The notes beneath the pieces were generated by a model that saw only the letters and a program-made list of their open reading frames with translations, was not told where the DNA came from and searched no databases. A stretch of DNA of 64,000 nucleotides, from assembly GCA_019638775.1 (NCBI GenBank), contig JAHBTD010000003.1:248001-312000 (forward strand). Reading direction: 5' to 3'. A program made the translations under genes and the position numbers. This stretch comes from Fimbriimonadaceae bacterium (lineage in GTDB: Bacteria; Armatimonadota; Fimbriimonadia; Fimbriimonadales; Fimbriimonadaceae). Below, piece after piece: positions 5,639 to 21,087 of this stretch. Each line of letters begins with the position of its first letter. Position 1 is the stretch's first letter.

Positions 5639-6022
5639 CTATCGCCAAAAGCTGACGGTGATGTTGTCTTGCGCTGGGTTCTCCTTGACAGATCGCTCCC
5701 TTAACCGAACGCTGCCGTTCATGGGCCAAAAACCGTCGAACTGCTTTCTGTACTGAAGCCCATCCTCTTCTTGAACGCACGTCCAACCTTCCGATTCGAG
5801 TTCAGCCTGAAGACTTTTGACGGTTTCGTTTGGGCGTGTCAGCGTGTAATAGATCTGGACGCCGCTTCCGGTCCCGCATGAACCAGATTGAGGGATGGTT
5901 TTAAGTGTGTCAATCGTGCGAACGCAGTCAGGAATGCCGCGCCGTGCAAACTCCGGCCGAATGACTTCCCACGACTGCCACAGGAAAGCGGCAGTAATTC
6001 CAATAAGAACGAACCACTTCAC
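5639..6022 (-). CDS. hypothetical protein with one N-terminal membrane anchor
   Basis: A 127-residue protein, not recognised. Residues 3-17 form one hydrophobic helix (KWFVLIGITAAFLWQSW), followed by a soluble domain with three cysteines. The GTG start at 6022 has GGAG four bases upstream and a TATAAAA-like stretch just before, so the gene may have a short leader. It lies 56 bases upstream of the permease gene on the same strand and could share its transcript. I see no motif that points to a function. Confidence 0.6.
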   Translation of the reverse strand: MKWFVLIGITAAFLWQSWEVIRPEFARRGIPDCVRTIDTLKTIPQSGSCGTGSGVQIYYTLTRPNETVKSLQAELESEGWTCVQEEDGLQYRKQFDGFWPMNGSVRLRERSVKENPAQDNITVSFWR

Positions 6023-15002: not shown

Positions 15003-15545
15003 TTATGGCGTCTTCTTAGGTTGAGGGGGGTCTTCCGTTGTGGCCGCCTTCTTTGTGGTTTGCGGGGTGTTCGTGCTCAATCCAGGAATGCCCCAATACT
15101 TTCCAACATACTGATTGGGATCGGTCACATAGAAGCGGACAATGCCAAAAACCATGTAGGCGGTGAGCAAGCAACCGAGCGCCCAAGTGCCGCTACGTGT
15201 GCCTATATCGAACTTGATGCCGCGAACGTATCCATAAAGGCAAACAAGGGCAGATATCGTAAATGCGAGATATAGGATTGGCCCAAAGGGGTTCGCTTGG
15301 ACAGCATGCGTGAACTGCCCGTGCACCATAGACGTAAAACTCGTGGTCAACCCACATCCTGGGCAGGGTCGCCCAAAGACAAGAACGCTTGGGCACGGGG
15401 GCAGGCCAAGCTGCTGATGCGTACCGTGGCCATTGGGGTTGGGAGTCAAGAACAGAGCTACGCCGGTTACACATACCCAGATCAAAAACCACACCAGGTG
15501 GCTTCCGAGTTGTCTTCGTGTCAGGCCAAGCGTTCGTTGAATCAT
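15003..15545 (-). CDS. DUF2752 membrane protein
   Basis: A 180-residue protein with three or four membrane spans. The DUF2752 signature is clear: FGRPCPGCGLTTSFTSMVHGQ, with the CPGCGLT cysteines that define the family, followed by two long hydrophobic segments. The C-terminal tail is rich in Thr, Lys and Pro. The function of the family is unknown. It lies 53 bases downstream of truB on the same strand. Confidence 0.87.
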   Translation of the reverse strand: MIQRTLGLTRRQLGSHLVWFLIWVCVTGVALFLTPNPNGHGTHQQLGLPPCPSVLVFGRPCPGCGLTTSFTSMVHGQFTHAVQANPFGPILYLAFTISALVCLYGYVRGIKFDIGTRSGTWALGCLLTAYMVFGIVRFYVTDPNQYVGKYWGIPGLSTNTPQTTKKAATTEDPPQPKKTP

Positions 15546-17915: not shown

Positions 17916-18401
17916 TTAGCGGTTTGCGGCAATACGATCTTTGGGTATAGAGGTCTGAATCTGGATGAGTTGGTTTTGTTCTGCCTGAACCTTATCCAAG
18001 ATCTCTTTCAAGGTGATCTTGCTCACGACGCTGTCAATCGCAGTCTGTATATCGGCCCACAGGCACATGATTGCGCACTCACCTTCGTGGACGCAGGTGC
18101 CGATGGAGCCGCTGTGGCGCCCACAGAACCCTTTGTCGTAGAGTTTGCCTCCAAGCTGTGCAAGGACCTCTCCAATCACAATCTCTTCGGGGGGCTGCGC
18201 CAGGGCATAACCGCCCGAGTGTCCTCGAGTGCTGTTGATATAGCCACCTTTGCGTAGGATCATGAGCAGCTTGGCGACATGAGGCTCGCTCAGCTCCTCA
18301 GCCTTACTGATCGTGGGGATGGTGACGCTGCCTTCCGGATACTCTTTCGCCACGCGAAGCAAGCACCTCAACCCATATTCTTCTTGTGCGCTTAACTTCA
18401 T
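17916..18401 (-). CDS. Rrf2-family regulator, IscR-like
   Basis: A 161-residue regulator. The N-terminal winged helix (LSAQEEYGLRCLLRVAKEYP, then EPHVAKLLMILRKGGYI) is followed by C93, C103, C109 and C113, spaced as for a 2Fe-2S sensor. GAGGAG precedes the ATG. It is likely to sense Fe-S status and control this block. A perfect TATAAT lies 33 bases upstream, so it may also have its own promoter. The C-terminal helix is longer than in IscR. Confidence 0.93.
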   Translation of the reverse strand: MKLSAQEEYGLRCLLRVAKEYPEGSVTIPTISKAEELSEPHVAKLLMILRKGGYINSTRGHSGGYALAQPPEEIVIGEVLAQLGGKLYDKGFCGRHSGSIGTCVHEGECAIMCLWADIQTAIDSVVSKITLKEILDKVQAEQNQLIQIQTSIPKDRIAANR

Positions 18402-18464: not shown

Positions 18465-18833
18465 TCACAGCAAACCCAGCATCAACTTCACTTCGTCCGA
18501 AACCATATCCAAAGTGAACGGAGGGTCCCACGTCAGTTCAACCTTTGCGTCCGTCACACCCGGCACAAATTTCACTTTTTCCTCAACTTCGAGCGGGAGC
18601 GATTCAGCGACTGGGCAGGCCGGAGAAGTGAGCGTCATCAGCACGTTTACAAAGCCATTCTCATCGGCTGAGACGTTATAGATCAGCCCGAGATCGTGAA
18701 TATTGACTGGGATTTCGGGGTCGTAGATTGAGCGCAATGCTTCAATGACCTCACTTTCCAGCATTGAACGTTCGATGGTGTTGAGGGTCTTTGATTGCGA
18801 GTTTGGTGTAGACATATCGATCGGTTTAGGCAT
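18465..18833 (-). CDS. SufT-like MIP18/DUF59 Fe-S assembly protein
   Basis: A 122-residue protein. From about residue 25 it is a DUF59 domain: VIEALRSIYDPEIPVNIHDL, then LTSPACPVAESL with the single conserved cysteine, and VELTWDPPFTLDMVS. SufT proteins help mature Fe-S enzymes when demand is high. ATG 18833 overlaps the stop of the membrane-protein gene by eight bases. The first 24 residues are not part of the domain, so a start at the ATG of residue 24 is possible. Confidence 0.92.
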   Translation of the reverse strand: MPKPIDMSTPNSQSKTLNTIERSMLESEVIEALRSIYDPEIPVNIHDLGLIYNVSADENGFVNVLMTLTSPACPVAESLPLEVEEKVKFVPGVTDAKVELTWDPPFTLDMVSDEVKLMLGLL

Positions 18834-19281
18834 GGCTCTTTTCTAAGCGCTCCCATAGAGAATTTACGTCATTGCGATCTGCCCATCGCATGACATACCA
18901 CGCCGTGAGGCTAAGGGGCAGGAGAATGGGAACGCATACTGTTGCGATTATCCCGTACGCGGCGAGTGCCTCAGCAGCTGAGATGGCACGGGCGGCGGCC
19001 AGAACAAGGCAAAAAAGGGCGATGTTTGTCAGGCTGATGAGATACGCATATCCGCCTGCTCCAGGCCCTGTTATGGAGACGATTTTCTTTCGGAAGAGAA
19101 AGGCAACCGTAAGGCCTGTGACGGCACCAAGCGGGCCGAGCCACAGCCAAATCAAGGGTCCAAGCTTGCCTATATATTCGACCCCCGCCACAAAAAGGCT
19201 GATGATCGACGCGAGCACTACTGTCGCGAAGTAGCCGACAATAGCTGCCATTACGTAGTAGAACCCGACTAATCTCTTCAC
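18826..19281 (-). CDS. four-helix membrane protein inside the suf operon
   Basis: A 151-residue protein with four predicted membrane helices (about 8-33, 42-63, 80-101 and 106-130), not recognised. The start is the GTG at 19281, which overlaps the sufU stop as GTGA; the longer frame would read back through sufU. Its stop overlaps the next gene by eight bases. Such coupling on both sides suggests it works with Fe-S assembly or sulfur/iron supply, but no metal-binding motif is visible. Confidence 0.75.
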   Translation of the reverse strand: MKRLVGFYYVMAAIVGYFATVVLASIISLFVAGVEYIGKLGPLIWLWLGPLGAVTGLTVAFLFRKKIVSITGPGAGGYAYLISLTNIALFCLVLAAARAISAAEALAAYGIIATVCVPILLPLSLTAWYVMRWADRNDVNSLWERLEKSHA

Positions 19282-19730
19282 TCTGTCGTCACCGCCTGGC
19301 CGGAATCTTTCAAAGCTGCTTCCATCGCATGCCAGGCAAGCGTGGCGCATTTGATCCTTACGGGAAACTCGCGCACACCGGCCAAGGCAGCGAGCTGGCC
19401 CATCTCTTCTACGTCGGCCTCCCCCACGCCTGTTGCCATCTCCCGGAACCTGCGAAAGAGGTCTTGAGCCTCCTCAACGGTCTTTCCGGTGACTTCTTCG
19501 GTCAACATCGAAGCCGATGCAGTCGAGATTGCACACCCCGCGCCATCGAAATGGGCGGATATGACCGTGCTGTGGTCAACGGTGAGATAGATCGAAACCT
19601 GATCGCCACATAGGGGGTTAAAGCCTTCGGCGCAGCAGCTATATTCAGCGGGCACGCCAAAGTTTCGGGGCCGCTTGCTGTGGTCCAAAATGACCTCTTG
19701 GTAGAGTTCACGAAGGTCGATGCTGGACAT
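19278..19730 (-). CDS. sufU: SufU-type Fe-S assembly protein/sulfur transferase
   Basis: A 150-residue protein matching SufU length. Conserved ligands are C41 and D43 in NPLCGDQ, C66 in DGAGCAIS and C128 in RIKCATLAW; the SufU insertion after the second cysteine (about 85-110) separates it from IscU. It takes sulfur from SufS. The ATG at 19730 is preferred; the longer frame depends on a TTG and has no family similarity in its first 34 residues. Confidence 0.95.
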   Translation of the reverse strand: MSSIDLRELYQEVILDHSKRPRNFGVPAEYSCCAEGFNPLCGDQVSIYLTVDHSTVISAHFDGAGCAISTASASMLTEEVTGKTVEEAQDLFRRFREMATGVGEADVEEMGQLAALAGVREFPVRIKCATLAWHAMEAALKDSGQAVTTE

Positions 19731-19848
19731 TTCTACTTCTATTGTGAAGCATTCCTTGATTGGCCTCTTGGGATGCTCCTTTAAATAGTCTGCAGCCACG
19801 GGTCTGTTTGATTTCGGGCTAAGCACCGACAACGAGCAGACTTACGAA

Positions 19849-21087
19849 TCAGCCCAGAATCTCTTTCGCTTTTCGCACAGCTCTCTGCAAAGCATCCAAG
19901 TCCGACTTCATCGTATACATACCAAGGCTCGCCCGTGCCGTTGCCGGAACTCCCATTCGCTTCATGAGTGGCATTGTGCAATGATGTCCGGCGCGTATGG
20001 CGATCCCTTCGGCGTCCAGAACGGTGCCGAGATCGTGCGGGTGAACGCCTTCAAGCGTGAAGGCCAGAATCCCCGCCTTTTCACGTGCCTGGCCTCGGAT
20101 CGTGAGCCCAGGAATATCGCTGAGGAGCTGGGTTCCATAGGCGAGTAGCTCGTGCTCGTAGCTTGCAATGGCTTCTTTTCCAATCGACTGCACGTAATCG
20201 ATCGCCGCGCCAAGTCCAATAAAGCCTGCAATATTGGGCGTCCCTGGCTCGAATTTGGCAGGGATCTCGGCGTAAGTGGTCTTCTCAAAGCTGACGGTGC
20301 GGATCATGCTCCCGCCGCTTTGATAAGGGGGCATCTTTTCGAGCAAAGTTCGCTTGCCATAGAGAATTCCGGTTCCTGTTGGTCCGTAAATCTTATGGCA
20401 GCTCAGTGTGTAGAAGTCGGCGTCGATGTCTTGAACATTGATTTGGAGGTGAGGCCCGCCCTGGGCACCGTCAACAAGACAGATCGCGCCGTGCTTCTTG
20501 GCCATGGCGATCATCTGCTTCGCAGGATTGATGGTGCCGATGGAGTTGCTGATGTGAACGAGAGCAACGATCTTTGTTTTTTCAGACAGGAGTTGCTCGT
20601 ACTCCTCAAGAATGACCTCTCCGTCGTCGTTGATGGGAGCGACTCTGAGCACGGTTCCTATCTGCTCGCACAAGATTTGCCAAGGCACGATGTTTGAGTG
20701 GTGCTCCATCGTGGTGATGACGATCTCGTCCCCTGCCTTCAGAAATGTGCGCGCGTAGCTTTGCGCGACGAGATTGATCGCTTCTGTACAACCCTTGGTG
20801 AAGATGATCTCGGCCTCTTCACGAGCGTTGACGAAGGCGCGAACTTTCTCTCTCGTTGATTCAAATGCGTCGGTCGCCAACTGACTGAGCGTGTGCACTC
20901 CTCGGTGGACGTTTGCGCTGTTTTCGGCGTAATAGGCCCGCGTGGCTTCAATGACTGGTTTGGGTTTCAGGGCCGTTGCCGCGCTGTCCAAATAGATGAG
21001 CGGCTTGCCGTGAATCGTCCGGCTAAGCGCCGGGAAGTCGTCCCGCACTTTCTCCCCAATATTCATGATCGTGGGCGAATGGGCCAT
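19849..21087 (-). CDS. sufS: cysteine desulfurase SufS
   Basis: A 412-residue PLP enzyme that removes sulfur from cysteine. PLP contacts include HH at 129-130, D206 in VDGAQG, and the Schiff-base K232 in SCHKIYGPTG. The active cysteine is C370 in RAGHHCTMPLM, in the short loop typical of group II (SufS) enzymes. sufU follows after 118 bases. serA lies 12 bases upstream, so serine made there could feed cysteine for this step. Confidence 0.97.
   Translation of the reverse strand: MAHSPTIMNIGEKVRDDFPALSRTIHGKPLIYLDSAATALKPKPVIEATRAYYAENSANVHRGVHTLSQLATDAFESTREKVRAFVNAREEAEIIFTKGCTEAINLVAQSYARTFLKAGDEIVITTMEHHSNIVPWQILCEQIGTVLRVAPINDDGEVILEEYEQLLSEKTKIVALVHISNSIGTINPAKQMIAMAKKHGAICLVDGAQGGPHLQINVQDIDADFYTLSCHKIYGPTGTGILYGKRTLLEKMPPYQSGGSMIRTVSFEKTTYAEIPAKFEPGTPNIAGFIGLGAAIDYVQSIGKEAIASYEHELLAYGTQLLSDIPGLTIRGQAREKAGILAFTLEGVHPHDLGTVLDAEGIAIRAGHHCTMPLMKRMGVPATARASLGMYTMKSDLDALQRAVRKAKEILG

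Follow-up and report, generated by a model that had tools for sequence, protein, structure and literature searches.

Between sufU and sufT, the suf operon of a Fimbriimonadaceae bacterium carries a gene, here called X, and we tentatively favour reading its product as a lineage-restricted, optional four-helix inner-membrane protein with cytosolic ends, which would be made from the suf transcript and act as an adaptor whose tail binds SufU, SufT or SufS. X is a genuine gene, because a homologue in the same slot of another genome keeps the same start and the codon-position identity pattern given below.

Results

X overlaps sufU and sufT in a suf operon

The window, a stretch of 64,000 nucleotides, contains X as a minus-strand open reading frame (18826-19281) that stays open throughout from a GTG at 19281 to a TAA stop and encodes 151 amino acids. 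The gene order on the minus strand is sufS, sufU, X, sufT, rrf2 and an erpA/iscA-type gene, with the following features:

19849..21087, minus, sufS cysteine desulfurase; TIGR01979 above cut-off (570 bits; cut-off 475.1)
19278..19730, minus, sufU; TIGR01994 above cut-off (149.8 bits; cut-off 92.5)
19278..19281, minus, GTGA shared by the sufU stop and the X start; also at 5995-5998 of locus L037, and in L046 with an unrelated gene
18826..19281, minus, X, predicted four-helix membrane protein, GTG start, TAA stop; a homologue (L003/L037) occupies the equivalent slot
18826..18833, minus, overlap of X stop and sufT start, 8 bases (17 in L037)
18465..18833, minus, sufT-like DUF59 gene; PF01883, and TIGR02945 at 135.4 bits against a cut-off of 143.4
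17916..18401, minus, Rrf2-family regulator; PF02082, TIGR00738
17530..17901, minus, ErpA/IscA-type protein; PF01521, TIGR00049

The original prediction had described an unknown four-helix membrane protein inside a suf operon. Four helices were indeed predicted without any curated match, the SufS, SufU, SufT-like, Rrf2 and ErpA/IscA-type neighbours were identified by family models, and the coordinates, the GTGA overlap with sufU and the 8-base overlap with the SufT-like gene are all correct on the sequence. The start codon of sufT is the ATG at 18833 and the sufU stop ends at 19278, whereas the start of sufU is most likely the ATG at 19730 and not the TTG at 19832, because the SufU of relatives begins at the same residues. 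As sufS and sufU are separated by ~120 bases in the window, strict co-transcription of the X operon with sufS is only likely, and a promoter and terminator scan gave signals at chance level only. Translational coupling of X to sufU and sufT appears plausible. SufU in the window's family often ends in -Thr-Glu-stop, and the GAG TGA of this ending contains GTGA also in relatives that carry no gene there. The 4-base overlap therefore amounts to a pre-existing start codon open to any inserted frame, and it is poor evidence for a common function of X and suf.

The host operon belongs to the SufU-type SUF systems of Fe-S assembly, with both SufS and SufU scoring above the curated cut-offs. SufB, SufC and SufD are also present in the genome: PF01458 was matched at two places, a SufC-like ATPase adjoins SufD on contig C3 and SufB lies on C1 (SufC and the B/D assignment by sequence reading). 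The sufS-sufU-sufT order is that of the SUF operon of M. tuberculosis (Rv1460-Rv1466) in which, unlike in the window, no membrane-protein gene intervenes and sufT (Rv1466) comes immediately after sufU (Rv1465), as judged from the gene numbers (PMC9045647). SufT has itself joined suf operons as an auxiliary factor (PMC4982691; PMC8593673), which is a precedent for accessory genes entering a suf operon. SUF assembly has been described as soluble, and one review uses the word membrane in its text only where it deals with the Rnf complex of nitrogen fixation (PMC8593673).

X has four predicted helices and a conserved tail

X matched no curated family in Pfam, NCBIfam gave nothing usable, and no transporter family was matched. 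The best Pfam match, DUF1129 (PF06570), is like X a multi-helix membrane protein, but X scored far under its cut-off (E 0.99; 9.4 bits against a gathering cut-off of 29.1) and membership was rejected. A single 14-residue match (E 0.027) was obtained in PHROGs, none was obtained in PDB sequences or plasmid records, and a fold search with the weak model of X returned no match below E 0.4. A CPGCGLT motif is carried by another small membrane protein of the window (15003-15545, minus), which presumably resembles DUF2752. The AlphaFold2 model of X (mean pLDDT 67.1) is of low to moderate confidence because its alignment had two sequences only, and it predicts four helices:

19189..19278, minus, X helix 1, residues 2-31 (AlphaFold2)
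19081..19173, minus, X helix 2, residues 37-67, basic RKK at its end (AlphaFold2)
18994..19062, minus, X helix 3, residues 74-96 (AlphaFold2)
18832..18978, minus, X helix 4 and tail, residues 102-150 (AlphaFold2)
18856..18891, minus, X tail motif MRWADRNDVNSL, residues 131-142, predicted cytosolic; the homologue has the same residue in 11 of 12 columns

X has basic residues in its initial MKR, in the RKK of the middle loop and in the MRWADRND of the tail. With this distribution, the positive-inside rule would put both termini in the cytosol together with the middle loop, giving a putative N-in/C-in topology. X and its homologue have Y-x-MRWADRND-x-NSL in common in their tails, and in this one comparison of two sequences the best conserved parts were the initial VGFY-x-V and the tail, the latter being the most conserved stretch. 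Inside the helices the residues common to the two sequences were mostly small, aliphatic/hydrophobic or aromatic, and no Cys, His, Asp or Glu was common to both.

The one homologue detected lies between sufU and sufT in Armatimonadetes bacterium 55-13

A two-row profile of X and its homologue was run against 85 family, 113 order and 291 phylum genomes. Convincing matches were confined to two of the 291, the window's genome and that of 55-13, and no convincing copy was seen elsewhere in either carrier or in any of the others. Two weak profile matches, one in G013 (E 0.006) and one in G147 (E 0.003), were set aside as chance, their frames being of 472 and 1199 amino acids and the tail motif absent. 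Contig scans by short-peptide patterns, which can miss distant relatives, gave no match with X alone and the 55-13 locus only with the two-row alignment. The suf linkage that the original prediction wanted looked for among homologues was borne out in that the sole detected homologue also lies between sufU and sufT; scattering away from suf was not found.

The homologue (MKRX01000026.1; L037, 5995-6423) has 142 amino acids and is 32-35% identical to X, and 55-13 is assigned to the family of the window's genome. The GTG start of the homologue lies in the GTGA of sufU and its end overlaps sufT by 17 bases, and it resembles X in size, predicted helices, slot, GTGA start, sufT overlap, N-terminal VGFY and the tail MRWADRND-x-NSL. 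The locus differs from the window in the TTG start of sufT, in the 17-base overlap and in having sufD in the same cluster, upstream. Between sufD and sufS of this locus (L037 3859-4251) there is also a frame in which a single hydrophobic segment is accompanied by a long tail rich in Ser and Asp.

The similarity of X to the homologue exceeded that of all 1000 shuffles keeping the hydropathy pattern (z 11.0 with the tail and 5.7 without it), and the identity at codon positions 1/2/3 was 0.43/0.58/0.35, a coding signature. Between the two carriers SufU and SufT are 55-58% identical and X has diverged to ~33%, which suggests that X has been linked to suf over a long time. On a tree of SufS, SufT and SufU, the window's genome groups with G095 and 55-13 with G068 (support 93 and 85, single-test values), and both of these neighbours are without X. 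As the carriers are therefore not sisters, X would have been present in the ancestor and then lost many times, or it would have been transferred into the same slot.

Most relatives have no gene between sufU and sufT

In 57 genomes of the family, independent SufU and SufT searches placed the two genes near each other. Two assemblies of the 55-13 genus, G035 and G061, are incomplete and have no sufU, and they were left out. The slot was empty in 52/57, with the sufU and sufT matches lying from 10 bases overlapping to 73 bases apart, and it was filled in five: by X in two, by a 77-amino-acid two-helix protein in two and by a protein of about eight helices in one. Other clusters of the family keep the window's order, sufS-sufU-sufT-rrf2-erpA, and differ from it in the empty slot of those 52. 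A core component would be expected wherever sufU and sufT occur, and X accompanies 2 of the 57 linked pairs. The idea of X as a general part of SufU-type assembly thus finds no support, because most relatives with the same operon are without X, 52 of the pairs being empty and three others holding unrelated membrane proteins; on these sequences X is best read as a rare, optional and lineage-restricted accessory and not a core assembly factor. Several good assemblies of genus g19 (G018, G063, G066, G067, G072, G074 and others) have sufT, with rrf2 and erpA where examined, and sufU was not detected in them, so the sulfur carrier may be replaced there.

The 77-amino-acid protein of G064 and G071, with two predicted helices, lies at L044 2577-2807 and L045 2529-2759 (minus), is 79% identical between the two genomes, and has no family match above cut-off and no second copy in the window's family. 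The protein in G062 has 291 amino acids and starts on GTGA like X; its halves are weakly alike (11 of 1000 pattern-keeping shuffles were as good), and one weak partial match was found elsewhere in the family, in G020. X had no similarity above shuffles to either slot protein and no profile similarity to the eight-helix one. The sufU of G062, a single-contig genome, seems frameshifted (L046 2098-2546), with a first frame of 109 amino acids and the conserved C-terminal half in another frame, and this may reflect either a genuine break or an error in the sequencing.

Membrane-protein inserts were commoner at sufU-sufT (5/57) than at the other junctions, namely sufS-sufU, sufT-rrf2 and rrf2-erpA, taken together (1/141; Fisher p 0.008). 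When independent events were counted the p value was 0.02 to 0.07, in a comparison chosen after seeing the data, and the enrichment at this junction may be regarded as suggestive only. The one insert at another junction, at sufS-sufU in G013 (L024, about 800-1020), is a short frame with two hydrophobic segments and an ambiguous start codon.

Discussion

As the adaptor that we tentatively prefer, X would be inserted in the inner membrane with both ends in the cytosol and translated from the suf transcript. Its tail, Y-x-MRWADRND-x-NSL, would bind the product of a co-translated neighbour, namely SufU, SufT or SufS, and this docking would bring sulfur transfer or the delivery of clusters close to Fe-S clients bound to the membrane. 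The original prediction had named anchoring of the complex among several roles, and X as an anchor of the SUF complex is possible. SufT of M. tuberculosis physically binds SufS and SufU (PMC9045647), so a complex to tether exists in at least one organism. The adaptor reading is favoured by the sole detected homologue, which is in the same slot, starts on GTGA and runs into sufT, by its similarity to X beyond the shuffles, by the tail being the most conserved stretch, and by the linkage of X to suf in two non-sister carriers with no convincing copy elsewhere among the 291 genomes. Against it, 52 of 57 relatives with sufU-sufT do without the gene, and the unrelated membrane proteins in the slot of other genomes also fit a merely permissive insertion point; the tail conservation is one comparison of two sequences and the structure model is weak.

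Almost as likely, and ranked slightly behind the adaptor, X could be a fast-evolving orphan membrane gene that sits at a tolerated sufU-sufT insertion point and uses suf expression without any role in Fe-S assembly. The -Glu-stop of SufU (GAGTGA) would offer it a ready GTG start, and sufT would be reached again by reinitiation. The absence of X from most relatives, the two unrelated kinds of membrane protein that fill the slot in other genomes, the GTGA present at the end of sufU by default and a codon fit of X that is in frame but the weakest among its neighbours all agree with such a passenger. It explains less well why two lineages that are not sisters kept X for long in one and the same slot, and the excess of membrane-protein inserts at sufU-sufT (5/57 against 1/141) hints at some selection for having a membrane protein at this junction.

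We regard a transporter or channel importing iron or cysteine, or exporting sulfide, as quite improbable. Its genomic position is what speaks for it, and four-helix proteins can transport as oligomers; however, the helices contain no Cys, His, Asp or Glu common to both proteins, the residues that are common are mostly small, hydrophobic or aromatic apart from those of the soluble tail, and neither a transporter family nor a fold was matched. Conserved polar or metal-binding helix residues together with a family match, by which a metal or sulfide transporter would be recognised, were not seen in X (two sequences), and the iron supply or sulfide export proposed for it is disfavoured because the helices hold no common residues of this kind. 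We give an equally small chance to one ancient and very fast-evolving slot family, of which X, the two-helix and the eight-helix proteins would be diverged members with repeated losses. All of them share the slot and the eight-helix protein shares the GTGA start and has weakly alike halves, but X was unlike either protein by the shuffle test and unlike the eight-helix one by profile. Hardly more probable is that small membrane proteins which tether Fe-S sulfur transfer to the membrane have repeatedly come to lie at the sufU-sufT junction in the window's family, the same job being done by unrelated proteins in different lineages.

Either of the two leading readings of X has modest general weight, because X is rare. 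If only a passenger, X would be an example of an orphan membrane gene settling in an important operon without breaking it. If the membrane adaptor is true, X would be a new kind of SUF accessory, and one would have to ask how membrane enzymes receive their clusters.
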